DNA of 49,275 bases from Clostridia bacterium (GTDB lineage: Bacteria; Bacillota; Clostridia; Oscillospirales; CAG-272). The position numbers were made by a program, and so were the translations under genes. The stretch covers positions 1 to 49,275 of the forward strand of contig JAFTOI010000016.1 in the NCBI GenBank assembly GCA_017463865.1, read 5' to 3'. Within the stretch, counting starts at the first letter, position 1. Each line of letters starts with the position of its first letter. The notes below the pieces were generated by a model. That model was not told the origin of the DNA. It saw only the letters and a list, made by a program, of their open reading frames with translations, and made no database searches. This document shows, in pieces, positions 36,212-41,765 of the stretch.

Positions 36212-36330
36212 ATTTTTCCGCCCTTCCGGGCGGGGGGAGGGGGCGAGAACCATCTCAAACGCCGAAGTTTCTTGCCCCCTCCCGAGGTCGCCGCAGGCGA
36301 CCTCTCCCACCCCCACTCTCCTTGGCTGAG
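36212..36330. repeat. Conserved-loop/variable-stem hairpin element, copy A
   Basis: Main hairpin 36235-36283: 15-base-pair purine/pyrimidine stem GGGAGGGGGCGAGAA against TTCTTGCCCCCTCCC (one G-U pair) around the 19-base loop CCATCTCAAACGCCGAAGT. It is flanked by a small hairpin CCGCCC-TTCC-GGGCGG (36218-36233), a second hairpin GAGGTCGCC-GCA-GGCGACCTC (36284-36304) and the end motif CTCTCCTTGGCT (36316-36327). Located between the BrxD-like and XRE genes. Confidence 0.9.
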
Positions 36331-36341
36331 GCCGCTGTTGC

Positions 36342-37706
36342 TTAGAATTCCAAGTCGTCCATCGTGACGGTTGCTGCCGTTGGAGCGGGCGGGGCTTCTT
36401 CGGCTTCGGCGGAATCGGTGTGTGCCGCGAGGGTGACGGTGCCGACGATGTCGGCGAAGCGGGCGTTCTCGTTCTGCATGAGAATGTTGAGCACTGTCAT
36501 GTAGTCGCGCAGCATTTCGCGGGGGGTGATCATGGCGTCGGCGCCGGCGCGGTCGAGGCAGAGGTTCATGAACTGCACCATCTCGTCCTCGGTGATGCGG
36601 GGCGTCCAGTTATAGTTCTGTGCGTACAGGCCGGTGATGCGCTTGATGAGGGCGAACAGCTCGTCGTTGGAGAGTCGGCGCAGGCGGATGACCGGACCGA
36701 TGAGATTTTTGAAGCCGTCCAGCGCAAAGCGGCTGTCGCAGAGGCGGGAGCGCAGGGCCTCATAGCTGAAGAGGCCGCGGCGGCTGTCCTCGAGGAACTG
36801 CGGCGTACCGCCGAGGATCAGCGCCAGTCCCGGCGCGCGGCCCTGGAGTGTATCGTTGAACATGGCGAGGATCTTCTCGTAGTTGTTCTCGCGCGAGACG
36901 CGGTGGGTGATCTTATAGAGATTGACGCATTCGTCGATGAAGACCACCAGCCCACGGTAGCCCATCTGTCGCACCAGTGATGCCCAGAGCTTGAGGTAGT
37001 CGTACCAGTTGTCGTCGTCGATGATGGTCGAGACCGGCATGCCGAGGGCGGCGCGGGCTTCGGTCTTGGTCGAATATTCGCCGCGCAGCCAGCGCAGGCA
37101 GGCGCTCATACGGGTGTCGTCGCCGTCGAGGTAGGCGCGGTAGTAGGCGGTGACGACCGACGCGAAGTCGAAGCCGCCGACGAGAAACTCCATCTCGCGC
37201 AGAACGGCGTTGATCTTTGCGCCGAGCGCCGAGCGGAAGCGCTCGTCCTCGGGGGAGAGGCCCTCGGCGCCGAGCTCGGTCTGCAGCTCGCCGATCCAGC
37301 GGGCGATGAGGCGGGGCATGGCGCCGCCGTCGGGGGAGGCCTTGGAGGCGAGGTTCTTCATCAGCTCGCGGTAGGTGGCGACGCCGCTGCCGCCCGAGCC
37401 GTAGAGTCTCCGCTCGGGGGAGAGGTCGGCGTCAGCGGTGATGAAGTCGCGCTCGAGGGCGTAGCCGCGGATGAGCTGCATGAGGAAGCTTTTGCCGCTG
37501 CCGTAGCGGCCGATGAGGAAGCGCATCGACCCGCCGCCGTCGTTGACAGCCTCAAGGTCGCCGAGCAGGGCGGCGATCTCGTCGGTGCGGCCGATGGCGA
37601 TATAGGGAGCACCGGCGCGGGGGACGACCCCCGCCGACACCGACGCCAGCAGCGAGGTGAGGATCCGTTTGGGGACGCGAACCGTATCGTGAGTTTGTTC
37701 GGGCAT
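36342..37706 (-). CDS. BrxD-like P-loop ATPase (DUF2791 type)
   Basis: 454 residues. N-terminal VPKRILTSLLASVSAGVVPR, then GRTDEIAALLGDLEAV, Walker A GRYGSGKS (66-73), a long middle region, Walker B GLVVFIDECVN (about 252-262) and RLCDSRFALDGFKNLIGPVIRL. This architecture is that of the BREX ATP-binding protein BrxD and related stand-alone ATPases that are usually encoded with an Lhr-like helicase and, often, a TerB-like protein. I chose ATG 37706 because AAGGA lies eight bases upstream; another ATG at 37712 is too close. No TerB, PglX, PglZ or methylase is nearby. Confidence 0.87.
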   Translation of the reverse strand: MPEQTHDTVRVPKRILTSLLASVSAGVVPRAGAPYIAIGRTDEIAALLGDLEAVNDGGGSMRFLIGRYGSGKSFLMQLIRGYALERDFITADADLSPERRLYGSGGSGVATYRELMKNLASKASPDGGAMPRLIARWIGELQTELGAEGLSPEDERFRSALGAKINAVLREMEFLVGGFDFASVVTAYYRAYLDGDDTRMSACLRWLRGEYSTKTEARAALGMPVSTIIDDDNWYDYLKLWASLVRQMGYRGLVVFIDECVNLYKITHRVSRENNYEKILAMFNDTLQGRAPGLALILGGTPQFLEDSRRGLFSYEALRSRLCDSRFALDGFKNLIGPVIRLRRLSNDELFALIKRITGLYAQNYNWTPRITEDEMVQFMNLCLDRAGADAMITPREMLRDYMTVLNILMQNENARFADIVGTVTLAAHTDSAEAEEAPPAPTAATVTMDDLEF

Positions 37707-37738
37707 AGTCATCGTCCTTTCGTGGTTTGTATCATACT

Positions 37739-37767
37739 ATTATAGCATGGTTTTCGTGCGGATGCAA
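37739..37767 (-). promoter_or_regulatory. SigA-type promoter of the BrxD-like gene
   Basis: On the minus strand TTGCAT (37762-37767), 17-base spacer, TATAAT (37739-37744), 33 bases ahead of the ATG. Confidence 0.85.
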
Positions 37768-37808
37768 GGCGTATTTTGTGCAAAGGCGGCGGTTTTCGCA
37801 GACTTTTT

Positions 37809-37890
37809 TCGCCCTCCCGGGCGACCAGAGGGAGGGAACCATCTCAAACGCCGAAGTTTCCCTCCCTCTGGACTCCCACCTTCCTTGGCT
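37809..37890. repeat. Conserved-loop/variable-stem hairpin element, copy B
   Basis: Main hairpin 37825-37871: perfect 14-base-pair stem CCAGAGGGAGGGAA against TTCCCTCCCTCTGG around CCATCTCAAACGCCGAAGT. It is preceded by TCGCCC-TCCC-GGGCGA (37809-37824) and ends with TTCCTTGGCT (37881-37890), the same layout as copy A but without the GCA hairpin. Confidence 0.9.
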
Positions 37891-37899
37891 GGGGGCTTT

Positions 37900-37954
37900 G
37901 CCACCCCTCCGGGGTGGCGCCCCTCAAGCAGCCGTGCCCCCCGCAGGGGGGCAC
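37900..37954. repeat. Two GC-rich hairpins between copies B and C
   Basis: GCCACCCC-TCC-GGGGTGGC (37900-37918) and GTGCCCCCC-GCA-GGGGGGCAC (37934-37954), each a perfect stem with a three-base loop, like the side hairpins of the neighbouring elements. Confidence 0.85.
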
Positions 37955-37959
37955 ATGTT

Positions 37960-38066
37960 AGCCAAGGAAGTGGAGAGGGTGAATTGCCGCGCAGCGGCAA
38001 GAGGGGGAGGAGGGAACTTCGGCGTTTGAGATGGTCCCTCCTCCCCCTCCCCGCCTAGGAGGGCGG
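37960..38066. repeat. Conserved-loop/variable-stem hairpin element, copy C (inverted)
   Basis: Reads as the reverse of copy B. Start motif AGCCAAGGAA (37960-37969), side hairpin TTGCCGC-GCA-GCGGCAA (37984-38000), main hairpin 38001-38049 with a perfect 15-base-pair stem GAGGGGGAGGAGGGA against TCCCTCCTCCCCCTC around ACTTCGGCGTTTGAGATGG, then CCGCC-TAGGAG-GGCGG (38051-38066). Confidence 0.9.
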
Positions 38067-38084
38067 AAAATATTCAAAAATCCC

Positions 38085-38113
38085 TTTACAAACGGGGAAA
38101 AATATGCTAAACT
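38085..38113 (+). promoter_or_regulatory. SigA-type promoter of nrdR
   Basis: TTTACA (38085-38090), 17-base spacer, TAAACT (38108-38113), 39 bases before the ATG. It begins 19 bases after hairpin element C. Confidence 0.7.
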
Positions 38114-38152
38114 ATCCCTAACGAATCCCGCGAAAGAAAGGATACCCACACC

Positions 38153-38623
38153 ATGAAATGTCCGAGCTGCGGTTACCCAGAGAGCAAGGTCGTCGACTCC
38201 CGTCCCATTGAGGAGGGCTCCAGCATCCGCCGCCGCCGCGAGTGCATGGCCTGCGGCAAGCGCTTCACTACCTTCGAGGTCATCGACCACATCCAGGTCA
38301 TCGTCCGCAAGAAGGGGGGCGGCAAGGAGTTCTTCGACCGCGCGAAGCTCCTCTCCGGCCTGATGAAGGCCTGCCAGAAGCGTCCTGTCGACGCTGAGGC
38401 CATCGCCGCCGAGATCGAGACCGAGCTGCAGAACTCGCTCCGTTCCGAGGTCACCACTGCCGAGATCGGCGAGATGGCCATGGAGAAGCTGAAGGCTGTC
38501 GACGAGGTCGCCTACGTTCGCTTCGCCTCGGTCTACCGCGAGTTCCGCGACGTCGAATCCTTCATGGCCGAGCTGCGCGAGCTCCAGCAGACCAAGCAGG
38601 ACACACAGGAGGTGGAGGTGTGA
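38153..38623 (+). CDS. nrdR: Transcriptional repressor NrdR
   Basis: Zinc-ribbon/ATP-cone repressor of ribonucleotide reductase genes, 156 residues. Zinc ligands Cys3, Cys6, Cys31 and Cys34; the DSRP motif and RRRRECMACGKRFTTFE follow, then an ATP-cone (about 46-136) with VRKKGGGKEFFDRAKL. ATG 38153 is preceded by AAAGGA. The next gene starts inside its stop codon region with GTG, implying coupled translation. Confidence 0.97.
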   Translation: MKCPSCGYPESKVVDSRPIEEGSSIRRRRECMACGKRFTTFEVIDHIQVIVRKKGGGKEFFDRAKLLSGLMKACQKRPVDAEAIAAEIETELQNSLRSEVTTAEIGEMAMEKLKAVDEVAYVRFASVYREFRDVESFMAELRELQQTKQDTQEVEV

Positions 38624-39180
38624 AGCAGCTGAAAATGCGCCGCCCATCGGCGCCTGCGGCCGCGCATGCGCTCCCCGACGGCTATCGCATCATCCCCTTC
38701 GCGGGGACGCAGGGCGAGATCACCGACTGGCTTGCCATCGTTGCCGAGGGGCTTGTCCCGGTCGAGGACGGCGAGGCTGTGTTCGACCGCTACATCCGGA
38801 ACTGGAAGGATCTGACCCCCGGGGAGGATCTCTTCTTCGTTACCGATTCCGCCGGTAAACGGGTTGCCACCATCGCCGCCGTGCGGCATTCCGATGAGAG
38901 CGGCTATATCCACATGGTCGGCTCGCTGCCCGAATGCCGCGGAAAAGGCGTCGGCCGCGCCATGCTTGCCCATGCGCTGTGCGTGATCGAATCGCGCGGC
39001 GTGAACCACACTATCCTTACCACCGACGATTACCGCCTGCCCGCCATCAAGCAGTACCTCGACGCCGGCTTCCGCCCCGTTCTCTGGCAGGATCCCGACA
39101 GCGATATGCGCGCCCGCTGGGACAAGGTCATCGAGACGCTGGGCTATCGCCCGGTCGAGTATCTGGATGAGCTGAATTAA
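38620..39180 (+). CDS. GNAT-family acetyltransferase
   Basis: 186 residues. The N-terminal part LPDGYRIIPFAGTQGEITDWLAI and acetyl-CoA site SLPECRGKGVGRAMLAHAL, then YLDAGFRPVLWQD and RARWDKVIETLGY, identify a single-domain GNAT; substrate unknown. Start is a GTG at 38620 overlapping the nrdR stop, behind GGAGGTGGAGG. It ends with a hairpin terminator. Confidence 0.85.
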   Translation: MKQLKMRRPSAPAAAHALPDGYRIIPFAGTQGEITDWLAIVAEGLVPVEDGEAVFDRYIRNWKDLTPGEDLFFVTDSAGKRVATIAAVRHSDESGYIHMVGSLPECRGKGVGRAMLAHALCVIESRGVNHTILTTDDYRLPAIKQYLDAGFRPVLWQDPDSDMRARWDKVIETLGYRPVEYLDELN

Positions 39181-39188
39181 ATCCAAAA

Positions 39189-39218
39189 CGCCGTGCCATT
39201 CGGAAGAATGACACGGCG
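39189..39218 (+). terminator. Rho-independent terminator of nrdR-acetyltransferase unit
   Basis: CGCCGTGCCATTC, GGAA loop, GAATGACACGGCG: 12 of 13 positions pair, followed by CTTTCTCTGCTTTTC. Confidence 0.75.
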
Positions 39219-39296
39219 CTTTCTCTGCTTTTCGGCGGGACTATTATAATTTCAAAATAAATCAAACGAAACATTGGACAGATGAACGGTTCACCG

Positions 39297-39370
39297 TGTC
39301 ATCCTGAGCGAAGCGAAGGATCTTTTCCTCCGTCAAAGATTCTTCGTCGCGTTGCTCCTCAGAATGACAG
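39297..39370. repeat. Palindromic intergenic repeat, TCATTCTGAGCG family, copy 2
   Basis: GTGTCATCCTGAGCGAAGCG near the left end and CTCCTCAGAATGACA near the right end are near-perfect reverse complements, with AAGATTCTTCGTCGCG in the right arm. Same family as 9951-10020. Confidence 0.85.
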
Positions 39371-39444
39371 ACATGTTTCGTCCGTGCGCAGAAATTTGCG
39401 AATGGTTTAATCATAATTCTAATTATTATAATTAGTTTCGCATA

Positions 39445-39472
39445 ATCAGTGGGTCATTTTTGACCCACTGAT
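39445..39472. other. Perfect 12-base-pair hairpin downstream of dapB
   Basis: ATCAGTGGGTCA, TTTT, TGACCCACTGAT. It lies 18 bases after the dapB stop on the minus strand; no U-tract follows on either strand. Part of the arm, with its TTTTTGA, is repeated once more toward dapB (GGCTCATTTTTGA). Confidence 0.8.
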
Positions 39473-39489
39473 GGCTCATTTTTGATTCC

Positions 39490-40248
39490 TCACATCTCGG
39501 CGACCATATCCTGCATGGCGTACATGCCGGCGGTCTTGCCGGGCAGCCAGACGGCGGCAGCAAGCGCGCCGGTGGCGAAGACCTCGCGGGAGGCCGCGCT
39601 GTGGGAGAGGGTCACGACCTCGTCGCGGCCGGCGAACATGACCTCGTGCTCACCCACAATGGTGCCGCCCCGGACGGCGTGGATGCCGATCTCGTGCGGG
39701 TCGCGCTGGCGGCGGACGGTGTGGCGGTCGTAGACGTATTCGCTGTCCTCCCGCACCTCGGCGATGGCGTCGGCCAGCATCAGGGCTGTGCCGCTGGGGG
39801 CATCGAGCTTGCGGTTATGGTGGCGCTCGATGATCTCGACATCAAATCCTGTGCCCAGCGTTGCCGCGGCGCGGCGGCAGAGCTCGATGAGCAGATTGAT
39901 GCCCAGAGACATGTTGCGCGAGTAGAAGACTGGGATCTTCTTTGCGGCCTCGCGCATGGCGGAAAGCTCGCTTTCGTCGTGGCCGGTAGTGGCGACGACA
40001 ACAGGAAGGCCGCGCGCGATGGCAAAGTCGAGCAGGGCAGGGAGGGCGGTGTGGTGCGAGAAGTCGATAATGGCATCGGCTGCGCAGTCAGCCGGGATGG
40101 CGGCGGGAGAGGCGTAGAGCGGATAGTCGGCTGCGCCGCCCATCGGGTCGATGCCGGCCGTGATGGTGACGTCGCCGCGCTCGGCGGCGGCCGCCGTGAC
40201 GGCGCTCCCCATGCGGCCCAGCGCGCCGGAAAGGATGATATTGGTCAT
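39490..40248 (-). CDS. dapB: 4-hydroxy-tetrahydrodipicolinate reductase
   Basis: Second step of the lysine/diaminopimelate branch, NAD(P)H-dependent; cytosolic. 252 residues. Seen: nucleotide site LSGALGRMGSA (6-16), FSHHTA, and the substrate-binding and catalytic EIIERHHNRKLDAPSGTA with His143/His144 and Lys147. ATG 40248 follows dapA by 39 bases; an AAGGA is ten bases upstream. Operon dapA-dapB, under the lysine riboswitch. Confidence 0.97.
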   Translation of the reverse strand: MTNIILSGALGRMGSAVTAAAAERGDVTITAGIDPMGGAADYPLYASPAAIPADCAADAIIDFSHHTALPALLDFAIARGLPVVVATTGHDESELSAMREAAKKIPVFYSRNMSLGINLLIELCRRAAATLGTGFDVEIIERHHNRKLDAPSGTALMLADAIAEVREDSEYVYDRHTVRRQRDPHEIGIHAVRGGTIVGEHEVMFAGRDEVVTLSHSAASREVFATGALAAAVWLPGKTAGMYAMQDMVAEM

Positions 40249-40287
40249 GGTTTATACGTCCTTGATTTGGTGAAAATTTGGATTCGA

Positions 40288-41181
40288 TCAGATCAGCCCG
40301 TGCTTCTTCATGGCTGCCTCGAGACGGGCGCGGTTGGCGTCCTCCATCTCGCACAGCGGCAGACGGAACTCCTCGGTGCAGAAGCCCATCATGGCCATCG
40401 CAGTCTTGGCCGGGACGGGGTTGACCTCGCAGAAGAGGGCGTTAATCAGGTCGAGCAGTTCAAGCTGCTTCTCGGTGGCGCGAGCGGTATTGCCGCTCAG
40501 ATAGTCGGCGACGATGTCGTGGGTCTCTTTGGGCATGACGTTGGAGAGTACCGAGATGACGCCCTTGCCGCCCAGCGAGAGGATGGGCACGATCTGGTCA
40601 TCGTTGCCCGAGTAGATGTCGAGGTCACGGCCGCACTCAGCCGCAATGGCCGCGACGGCGCTGATGTTGCCCGAGGCCTCCTTGACGGCGACGATGCGCT
40701 CGTGCTTGGCCAGCTCCTTGTACACCGACAGCGGGATGTTCACGCCGGTGCGGGAGGGGACGTTGTAGAGGATAATCGGCTTGTTGGTGGCGTCGGCCGT
40801 CTCGAGGAAACTCTTGATGAGGCCCTTGGGGGTGGCCTTGTTGTAGTAGGGGGTGACGAGCAGCAGCGCGTCGGCGCCCGCGTCGCAGGCGGCCTTCGAG
40901 AGCTCGATGCCGTAGGCGGTGTCGTTGGAGCCGGTGCCGGCGATGACCGGAACGCGGCCGGCAACCGTCTCGACCGCGTGGGCGACGAGGTCACAGTGCT
41001 CCTCATGGGTGAGGGTTGCCGCCTCACCGGTGGTGCCGGCGACGACGATGGCGTCGGTGCCGCGCGCGATCTGATCCTCGAGGATGCGGTCAAAGGCAGG
41101 GTAGTCGATCTGTCCGTTCTTGAAAGGGGTGACGACGGCGACAGCCGCACCAGTAAAAATGGTAGGTTTTGTCATAGACAT
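40288..41181 (-). CDS. dapA: 4-hydroxy-tetrahydrodipicolinate synthase
   Basis: Condenses pyruvate with aspartate semialdehyde, the committed step to diaminopimelate and lysine. 297 residues, TIM barrel. Seen: GTTGEAATL (49-57), catalytic Tyr139 in YNVPSRTGVN, and Schiff-base Lys167 in VAVKEASGN. ATG 41181 has AGGAAA upstream; a second ATG six bases later is less well placed. It is preceded by a long leader holding a lysine riboswitch and its terminator. dapB follows. Confidence 0.97.
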   Translation of the reverse strand: MSMTKPTIFTGAAVAVVTPFKNGQIDYPAFDRILEDQIARGTDAIVVAGTTGEAATLTHEEHCDLVAHAVETVAGRVPVIAGTGSNDTAYGIELSKAACDAGADALLLVTPYYNKATPKGLIKSFLETADATNKPIILYNVPSRTGVNIPLSVYKELAKHERIVAVKEASGNISAVAAIAAECGRDLDIYSGNDDQIVPILSLGGKGVISVLSNVMPKETHDIVADYLSGNTARATEKQLELLDLINALFCEVNPVPAKTAMAMMGFCTEEFRLPLCEMEDANRARLEAAMKKHGLI

Positions 41182-41248
41182 GGCAGGTTTTCCTTTCGGT
41201 TAGGTAAAAATTTGCCGTTTGGGGCGCGGAAAAGCGGCAAAACCGCAG

Positions 41249-41278
41249 AAAAAATAAAAAACCGGTTGAAAACCAGCT
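41249..41278 (-). terminator. Riboswitch-linked terminator ahead of dapA
   Basis: Minus-strand AGCTGGTT, TTC loop, AACCGGTT (eight pairs with two G-U), then TTTTATTTTTTC. It sits between the lysine aptamer and the dapA ribosome site, so read-through would be controlled by lysine. Confidence 0.7.
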
Positions 41279-41340
41279 GTACTTGTAATATAATAGTGCT
41301 GTTCAGGGCCGAGAAAGCCGAACGACTCATTACCAATACA

Positions 41341-41505
41341 GATAGCTCTCCATCAAATGAATTGACGACAGTCCGTCAGCTGTTGACCGAACGAACCAGC
41401 GGCCGCCCGGCTGCCGGGAAACCACTTCGGCGGTCCGCGCTCCCACGCCACCTCAGACGGCCGCAGCGGCCTCGGTGACGCGCGGTCACAGCCCGCGCCT
41501 CTATC
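41341..41505 (-). ncRNA. Lysine riboswitch (L box) aptamer
   Basis: In the dapA leader (minus strand), GATAGAGGCGCG (41505 to 41494) opens the structure and TGGAGAGCTATC (41352 to 41341) closes it, so P1 is GATAG/CTATC. Inside are GCCGAAG (41431-41425) and GGACTGTC (41374-41367), the landmark conserved segments of lysine riboswitches. It ends about 60 bases ahead of a terminator and regulates dapA-dapB, which are typical targets. The start lies about 40 bases after the promoter -10. Confidence 0.87.
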
Positions 41506-41544
41506 AATAAGTATATGTGTCGCACCGCAAATGGGTACGCTGTT

Positions 41545-41573
41545 ATGGTATCACAGATTTGGCCGCTTGTCAA
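41545..41573 (-). promoter_or_regulatory. SigA-type promoter of dapA-dapB
   Basis: On the minus strand TTGACA (41568-41573), 17-base spacer, TACCAT (41545-41550). Transcription would begin near 41538 and give a leader of about 355 bases that carries the lysine riboswitch. Confidence 0.85.
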
Positions 41574-41619
41574 TCGTTTTTTCGACTTTTTGCAAAAATT
41601 CTTCCGCAGCGCCGCCGTC

Positions 41620-41694
41620 AGCCAAGGAGAGGGGTGGTGTCGGAGGGGAGGAACTTCGGCGTTTGAGATGGTCCTCCCCTCCGGCCCGTGCGGG
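41620..41694. repeat. Conserved-loop/variable-stem hairpin element, copy D
   Basis: Start motif AGCCAAGGAGAG (41620-41631), then main hairpin 41641-41683: perfect 12-base-pair stem CGGAGGGGAGGA against TCCTCCCCTCCG around ACTTCGGCGTTTGAGATGG, then a short CCCG-TG-CGGG hairpin (41685-41694). It lies between the dapA promoter and queA. Confidence 0.9.
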
Positions 41695-41765
41695 AGCGCG
41701 AAAACCCTCAGCGGAAACGAATATCCTAACACAATTACGAAAATAATTCCCACGGAGTGAAAAAT

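Follow-up and report, generated by a model that had tools for sequence, protein, structure and literature searches.

A short dispersed repeat of gut Clostridia with one constant loop and three co-varying segments suggests a three-stranded, self-clasping fold

A short repeat is scattered in the genomes of some gut bacteria (Clostridia), and its one constant loop, together with three segments that co-vary, suggests a three-stranded, self-clasping fold. Four copies (A to D) were found in the window, the whole stretch of 49,275 nucleotides analyzed here. Each contained the 19-base loop CCATCTCAAACGCCGAAGT in exact form, at 36250-36268 and 37839-37857 on the plus strand and at 38016-38034 and 41653-41671 on the minus strand, and the window held 4 loop matches at up to 3 mismatches versus 0.01 expected from 100 shuffles. 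The 1.9-Mb draft genome of the window (labeled G000, 67% complete) contained 82 loop copies at up to 3 mismatches, 29 of which were exact, as well as 17 doublets. Matches to the loop family were present in at least 54 of the 295 genomes sampled from the family of the host. A search of Rfam gave no match to the module at a family cut-off, the one gathering-level match in the window being a lysine riboswitch, and eight loci of the repeat gave four sub-threshold matches and none higher. The sequence CATCTCAAACGCCGAAG was absent from the texts of the open-licence PMC literature searched, and the repeat was undescribed in the titles and abstract openings of the papers that matched related topics there.

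Copy A, on the plus strand, began with a small flanking hairpin (CCGCCC-TTCC-GGGCGG, 36218-36233), the loop of which reads as the GNRA-like GGAA on the opposite strand. The purine-rich stem arm P (36235-36249) and the pyrimidine arm (36269-36283) enclosed the loop and paired with one G-T. They were followed by an extra hairpin between the stem base and the third strand (36284-36305), which defined a type 2 module, then by the third-strand segment (36306-36320) and by CTTGGCT (36321-36327), the proposed pseudoknot partner of GCC(G)AAG in the loop. Copy B, on the same strand, was of type 1, with a small hairpin (TCGCCC-TCCC-GGGCGA, 37809-37824), arm P (37825-37838), the pyrimidine arm (37858-37871), the third-strand segment immediately 3' of the stem (37872-37883) and CTTGGCT (37884-37890). 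Copy C, on the minus strand, formed an inverted doublet with copy B and comprised CTTGGCT (37960-37966), the third-strand segment (37967-37983), an extra hairpin at the stem base (37984-37998), the pyrimidine arm (37999-38015) and arm P (38035-38051). Copy D, also on the minus strand, comprised CTTGGCT (41620-41626), the third-strand segment (41627-41638), the pyrimidine arm (41641-41652), arm P (41672-41683) and an imperfect small hairpin (41686-41701). The original prediction of four hairpins with an exact common loop and different, yet self-complementary stems was borne out at all four places, with stems of 15, 14, 15 and 12 bp in A to D. The 5' arms, described there as all purine, were only purine-rich, with C present in A, B and D, and the single G-U pair claimed for the set was indeed found as the G-T of copy A, although extending the stem of copy C from 15 Watson-Crick pairs to 17 added two outer G-T pairs. 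The extra hairpin was optional as proposed, being present in A and C and absent from B and D. In the conserved tail of the proposed fixed module, CTTGGCT was constant, whereas the part before it was variable.

Among 154 distinct copies with an exact loop in the DNA sampled, 118 had a stem score of at least 8 and 36 did not, compared with 2 of 5000 random positions, so the stems were not due to chance, and the loop was not mostly stemless as ordinary repeat decay had been expected to leave it. The stems reached 24 bp across the family, and pairing was kept in each of the orthologous copies whose stems were 16 and 20 bp long. The spacer before CTTGGCT, the third strand that the original prediction had not noticed, matched the purine arm position for position, in parallel orientation and in a register fixed at the loop end, and it changed when the stem changed. 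In related copies, the third segment differed in 1751 of 2032 comparisons in which P was different and in 1372 of 6125 in which P was identical, the comparisons not being independent of one another. A plain complement test on 77 copies gave a match of 0.679 versus 0.558 ± 0.011 when segments were permuted within stem length; the permutations here and below corrected only partly for relatedness among copies. Sliding the register in this test gave at best 0.557, versus 0.691 at offset 0. Of 166 copies in which the third segment was fitted without an anchor, 134 had a best fit that ended at CTTGGC.

Counting the matched positions revealed a code in which G was matched with C in 786 of 864 cases, and A was matched in 354 of 368, with T in 192 of these and with A in 162; about 7-10% of the positions broke the code. 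Under this code, the match was 0.92 versus 0.573 ± 0.016 permuted in type 1 (n=100) and 0.895 versus 0.583 ± 0.022 in type 2 (n=44); the A/T and A/G alternatives of the code were fitted on these same data, whereas the plain complement test was independent of them. The result was similar in the 51 copies of the window's genome (0.934 versus 0.614) and in the 93 copies of other genomes (0.901 versus 0.575). In the window, with the count started at the third arm base, the fit was 13/13 in A, 9/10 in B, 11/15 in C, the poorest of the four, and 10/10 in D; over all positions it was 14/15, 10/12, 11/17 and 10/12, respectively, and the two positions adjacent to the loop fitted less well.

Ordinary decay of a MITE or REP repeat, in which the pairing would come from young inverted repeats and the likeness of the spacer from purine/pyrimidine composition, would suit a dispersed and mobile family, a congeneric IS1182-family element with the ends of some units, and the 36 exact loops that have no long stem. 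However, the match was lost when spacers were permuted among stems, even at equal stem length, the register was exact to one base, and the differing stems of orthologous copies still paired. This reading was already disfavored, and we consider it improbable. The third segment is a mirror (parallel-complement) copy of the arm, which neither copying nor fold-back synthesis can produce; the palindrome-repairing mechanism of the original prediction therefore cannot account for this segment, and selection on a fold of the module is implied. The conserved structure that had been proposed is thus supported, with a third strand added to the stem and loop. The claim that the copies do not reflect plain repeat copying is wrong in part: the family is dispersed and mobile, and some copies outside the window's genome lie within IS1182-family MITEs with target duplications.

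Read on the opposite strand, the code corresponds, at the level of sequence, to a class I purine-motif intrastrand DNA triplex. Such a triplex has G on G:C and A or T on A:T (PMC4666352), and the module agreed both with these triplets (G.GC and A(T).AT) and with the reverse-Hoogsteen strand order R, R, Y in matching register. Both A and T were accepted on A:T, which fits class I; the pyrimidine motif would require T only. The modeled strand would run 5'-AGCCAAG, third strand R3, an optional hairpin, purine arm P, ACTTCGGCGTTTGAGATGG and the pyrimidine arm, and would fold back twice into R3.P:Y, while GCCAAG would reach up and pair with the loop as an H-type pseudoknot. The complementarity of GCC(G)AAG in the loop and CTTGGC in the 3' tail was near-invariant and hints at such a pseudoknot. 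A compensatory GGC/GCC double change was found only in two copies (L082 and L135) from one MAG (SIG701), in the second of which the freely fitted third segment ended elsewhere than at the tail, and four copies carried single uncompensated changes in this pairing. A G-quadruplex formed by the mirror-arranged G tracts of R3 and P is very improbable. The modeled strand is G-rich and had a G2+ motif in 98 of 144 copies, but a G3+ motif in only 15 of 144; moreover, A/T positions were matched too, and the pairing of the pyrimidine arm, needless for a quadruplex, was kept.

The triplex may form in the cell, probably not as RNA but in DNA that becomes single-stranded during replication, transcription or the extrusion of cruciforms. 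The module could instead be transcribed, often in a 3' UTR before a second terminator hairpin, as a pseudoknotted RNA that stabilizes or terminates transcripts. Outside the window's genome, the modeled strand was sense to the upstream gene in 71 cases versus 25, a T-run hairpin lay 3' of the module in most MITE copies inspected, and 56 of the 88 small hairpins found had GNRA-like loops (GGGA 47, GGAA 5, GAGA 3 and GAAA 1; the others were ATTC 4, GGGC 2, AGGA 2 and 24 more). Nevertheless, purine-motif triplexes cannot form in RNA (PMC4666352), G-U was not favored among stem mismatches (A.C 25 versus G.T 15, which is not decisive as a strand test), and orientation was balanced in the window's genome (32 versus 30). 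By eye, copies B, C and D seemed to precede the promoters of the flanking genes, and the lack of a module match above any Rfam family cut-off also counts against an RNA element, which we regard as rather unlikely.

Mobility was most evident in related genomes. Within the G121 genus and in two further MAGs, RGIG6466 and SIG672, a subset of modules was located inside units of about 145 bp with IS1182-family ends and duplicated terminator hairpins. Direct repeats of at least 12 nt surrounded 21 of 108 copies outside the window's genome, versus 0 of 80 permuted pairs, and contained a complete hairpin in 11 of the 21; by pattern, IS1182 ends were present on both sides of 14 of the 108, the other 94 having no two-sided match. 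The G121-type units had both the terminal inverted repeats and the hairpin insertion and duplication of an IS1182-family MITE, and an empty site was found in two congeners. An autonomous IS1182-family element in a congener had 15-base ends identical to those of the units, and four related transposase loci had similar ends with the same hairpin on either side. The module was not seen in these elements (L371 and the four related loci, of which mainly the ends were inspected). As a possible lead on the origin of the repeat loop, it matched the 3' end of the IS1182 gene at 12 of 13 bases in one element (G061), among 30 comparisons over five elements.

In the window's genome, the module was carried with other ends. 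None of 66 copies there had flanking repeats of at least 12 nt, no locus was among the matches of the IS1182-type end scan, and flanking duplications around its copies and 17 doublets were not in excess over permuted ones; the window copies shared neither the ends nor the hairpin duplication of the MITEs. The congener sites for B and C held about 1.2 kb of other DNA, hence no clean empty site, and the site of copy A was alignable only in G001. Among 12 genomes with at least 11 copies (including G000 and G121), the PF13751 transposase was above cut-off only in G306, with a weak match in G174. No shared mobilizer beside the modules was apparent among the 25 largest ORF clusters; the biggest were syntenic, and one contained the Y1 loci that had been collected as such. 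Inverted doublets and high copy number would suit a REPIN-like element mobilized by a Y1 (RAYT/IS200-type) transposase, but Y1_Tnp was not found in the 67% complete window genome. Of the 11 other carriers with at least 11 copies, 6 likewise gave no Y1_Tnp, among them the 99%-complete G121, and 5 had it; of 14 genomes with 0-1 copies, 5 had it as well. Y1 presence was not associated with copy number and a Y1/RAYT mobilizer was rejected; for the family as a whole this reading was already disfavored and is hardly credible.

We favor, with some confidence, the module as a structured core around which small non-autonomous mobile repeats are built. It could fold into a triplex-pseudoknot, and in the G121 genus and the two further MAGs a subset of modules is carried by IS1182-family MITEs, which target intrinsic terminators and leave the terminator hairpin duplicated. 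Whether bacterial intrastrand DNA triplexes form or act is a long-standing open question, and no in vivo footprint was found for the E. coli elements (PMC4666352). The chances appear about even that selection maintains, in dozens of copies per genome, a natural fold in the form of a pseudoknot-clamped class I intrastrand triplex 12-20 triplets long, as a portable domain that different non-autonomous elements use, possibly to help themselves move; the fold would be selected since folded copies are those that spread. If this is true, the three-strand covariation is evidence from sequence evolution for such triplexes in living cells. More than 100 natural variants with co-changing strands are natural compensatory mutants that make the triplex question testable, and a structured cargo is revealed within terminator-seeking IS1182-family MITEs.

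RNA triplexes of the SAM-V type are short and mostly of the pyrimidine motif. The SAM-V H-type pseudoknot with its major-groove triplex resembles the module in its stem, loop helix and third strand beside the stem, but is a ligand-binding RNA (PMC6061858). YPAL/RU-2 of Yersinia is likewise a small mobile repeat with internal inverted repeats and 3-26 bp duplications at or beside dyad symmetry, but differs in length and host, and no three-strand rule was found in the available part of its description (PMC2229807). The ends CAGACTGAAGACAAAG are common to the G121-type units and an IS1182-family element, and the units are located at terminator hairpins, as in the IS1182/IS1272 group (PMC5678879, PMC4923244), for which a model has the target stem-loop either lost or duplicated (PMC5678879); the window copies, in contrast, lack CAGACTGAAGACAAAG ends and duplications. 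PIT/BoxC/TM_ECO are also high-copy bacterial repeats in which one strand can fold into a purine-motif triplex and an inverted configuration occurs (PMC4666352). TM_ECO is class II (Y-R-R), with 9 triplets and loops of 3-6 and 3 nt (PMC4666352), whereas the present family is class I (R-R-Y), has mostly 12-20 triplets and a fixed 19-nt loop, adds a CTTGGC clamp and an optional basal hairpin, and does not follow the PIT/BoxC/TM_ECO consensus given in that paper. The ITxF search used there accepted only loops of 1-6 nt, with stems of 6-15 (PMC4666352); the module, with a 19-nt loop and stems of up to 24 bp, falls outside these limits, and its loop alone means that the search would have missed it. 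PIT/BoxC triplex repeats and IS1182 MITEs are thus known kinds, and what is new here is the proposed pseudoknotted class I design with its three-way covariation, which the present family adds to PIT/BoxC.

The window, contig C7 of a 1.91-Mb draft genome (G000, 67% complete), carries copies A to D of the repeat. The original prediction that these four share an identical loop on pairing stems was borne out, since loops were exact in 4/4 and stems paired in 4/4. A scan of G000 revealed 29 exact loops and 82 with three or fewer mismatches, compared with 1 for a reversed control pattern. Copies were found in all four congeners tested (2-12 each, two mismatches), and the 17-base core (one mismatch) was matched in 54 of 295 sampled genomes of the family, with counts that varied widely between genomes, from 0 to 77. 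Among named genomes at least 107 stretches matched; almost every title among the matches listed was that of a Clostridia or Oscillospiraceae MAG, and the gut sources, among the matches listed that name one, were mostly sheep, deer, goat, buffalo, and horse. One Tannerella match among those listed was without the long stem. Copies often lay at contig ends in several MAGs (e.g. L067, L068, L082, L099), so assemblies seem to break at the repeat and real copy numbers may be higher. Of 269 distinct copies compared, allowing up to 4 mismatches in the loop, 180 reached a stem score of at least 8, as did 118/154 exact loops, versus 2/5000 random positions. Mismatches in the 2685 stem positions were A.C (25), C.T (18), G.T (15), and others (24). 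The motif C[CT]TG[GC]C lay within 100 bases of the loop in 139/154 exact-loop copies, and some exact-loop copies had a stem of only 3-6 bp, several of them keeping the CTTGGC tail. At L078, L085, L096, L101, and L110 the loop was exact and the stem just 3-5 bp, yet the CCTTGGCT tail was present; such copies are either degenerate or a distinct subtype.

Analysis of the spacer between the pyrimidine arm and CTTGGCT revealed a third strand that followed the stem. Its length was about that of the stem (1-3 shorter in 60/77 copies), and its sequence was the parallel complement of the purine arm, i.e. the mirror of the pyrimidine arm, with the register fixed at the loop end. Plain complementarity in 77 non-redundant copies was 0.679, compared with 0.558±0.011 when spacers were permuted among equal-length stems, and sliding the register gave 0.691 at offset 0 and 0.557 at the best other offset. 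Under a code in which G of the purine arm calls for C, A for A or T, and C for A or G, 144 copies scored 0.92 for type 1 (n=100, spacer directly after the stem) and 0.895 for type 2 (n=44, extra sequence, in many cases a hairpin, before the spacer), whereas 5000 permutations averaged 0.573 (type 1) and 0.583 (type 2) and never exceeded 0.639 and 0.665, respectively. The match persisted with G000 alone and with the other genomes alone, and with the spacer end left free, the best fit terminated at CTTGGC in 134/166 copies. Between copies differing at 1-3 arm positions, in comparisons that share copies, the spacer differed at 1751/2032 changed and 1372/6125 unchanged positions. These results strongly indicate three co-varying strands. 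Neither DNA copying nor fold-back repair can generate a mirror repeat, so selection on a fold would be the simplest reading.

The spacer carried C opposite 786 of 864 arm G residues, T (192) or A (162) opposite arm A (n=368), and mostly A opposite arm C (63/85). In the purine motif, T would be tolerated opposite C:G. On the strand as originally read, the spacer would make a class III pyrimidine triplex, requiring T at every A. The opposite strand gives a predicted class I triplex, whose third strand places G against G:C pairs and either A or T against A:T pairs, the combinations described for the purine motif in PMC4666352. The same paper states that RNA cannot form purine-motif triplexes, which favors single-stranded DNA. 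Some results pulled towards a module acting as RNA: on this opposite strand, the small flanking hairpin had a GNRA-like loop in 56 of the 88 copies where it was found, and outside G000 this strand was sense rather than antisense to the upstream gene in 71 versus 25 cases, although in G000 the split was 32 versus 30. Of the copies, 12/232 lay inside a called gene. Triplex formation in the cell, the choice between DNA and RNA, and the function are inferred.

The loop segment GCC(G)AAG was complementary to CTTGGC just past the third strand, and both sites were nearly invariant; with such pairing, the third strand would ascend along the stem, leaving the tail to clasp the loop. A double change (loop GGC with tail GCC) appeared in two copies, L082 and L135, both of MAG SIG701; that of L135 was read by eye, and its free spacer fit ended elsewhere than the tail. 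Uncompensated single changes were ACC in two copies, GTC in one, and TCC in one. Since the double change came from one MAG and uncompensated changes occurred, the sequences point only weakly to a pseudoknot. In the divergent G000 doublet partners L001 and L009, the loop ended in GCCGAGAG or GCCAAGAG and large hairpins were inserted; GCCAAG is a perfect partner of CTTGGC.

A subset of copies outside G000 showed signs of mobility. Direct repeats of at least 12 bases flanked 21 of 108 stemmed full-flank copies outside G000, versus 0/80 permuted pairs, and 0/66 copies in G000. A complete hairpin (17-33 bp) lay within 11 of the 21 repeats, its distance from the module being almost constant, and several of the remaining repeats were parts of longer, imperfectly matching hairpins. 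At site L326 of G121 (99% complete), the order was a terminator hairpin, CAGACTGAAGACAAAG, the module, TTTTGTCTACACTTTG, the same hairpin, and a T-rich run. In both G205 and G239, the orthologous site had a single hairpin of other stem sequence and lacked the element. At a second G121 site (L223) the element was absent in G205, and G239 held other sequence there. G205 held a near copy of the L326 element (94% over 135 bases) in a different context.

A search for PF13751 in 25 genomes matched four, two of them above the cut-off. One of these, G061, carried an element of about 1580 bp with perfect 15-base ends CAGACTGAAGACAAA, end hairpins that differed from each other, and an IS1182-family transposase of 505 aa (469 bits, cut-off 270). 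The 17-base-core scan found no module in G061, a congener of G121, and the PF13751 search of G121 gave no match. Related transposases with related ends were found at L374, L378, L379, and L380, where by eye either flank carried the same hairpin; at a fifth locus with a related transposase, L377, no such ends were found. PMC5678879 and PMC4923244 describe the IS1182-family element IS1272 as targeting stem-loops and terminators, and model loss or duplication of these targets. Taking the G061 ends, the hairpin-flanked relatives, and this targeting as reported there together, the ~145-bp units holding some modules outside G000 are most plausibly IS1182-family MITEs that carry the module as cargo, which makes an IS1182-family element the likely mobiliser of this subset. 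When the window copies were tested, they did not qualify as such MITEs. The 3′ end of an IS1182 gene (L371:1337-2916), TTGGGCGTTTGAG, matched the module loop TTCGGCGTTTGAG at 12/13 bases, and may be its origin.

Orthologous sites of sister genomes showed that stems can differ wholly yet pair (L105/L132, 16 and 20 bp; L123/L159, type 2 versus type 1). Copy D was missing at the aligned site in G001, G003, and G004, and copy A at that in G001, in alignments that were not clean insertions. Inverted doublets within 300 bp and with CTTGGCT inward numbered 16 by eye and 17 by script in G000, with 0 outward-facing by eye. Some doublets (L009, L198, L192) lay within a larger palindromic unit, whose outer parts in L009 and L198 resembled AATGTCATGAACTTAAG; this unit is possibly a second MITE type carrying the module.

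In the window, protein families placed copy A between the BrxC/BrxD gene (-) and an HTH gene (-), and copies B and C between BrxC/D and nrdR (+). The BREX-type ATPase gene between copies A and B (36342-37712, -; PF10923 BrxC/D, 527 bits) had DNA matches over most of its length in 4/4 congeners. Copy D lay between dapA, preceded by a lysine riboswitch (41335-41511, -; Rfam RF00168, 72 bits), and a queuosine-synthesis gene (+). Another repeat, apparently, occupied 39296-39370 (GTCATCCTGAGCGAAGCGAAGGATC...TTCGTCGCGTTGCTCCTCAGAATGAC), parts of which resembled the spacer that short-stem modules have in MAG RGIG6494 (L085).

Intrastrand triplex repeats and MITEs are already known kinds of element; as far as the literature search could show, neither the module design nor the evolutionary evidence has been described before.
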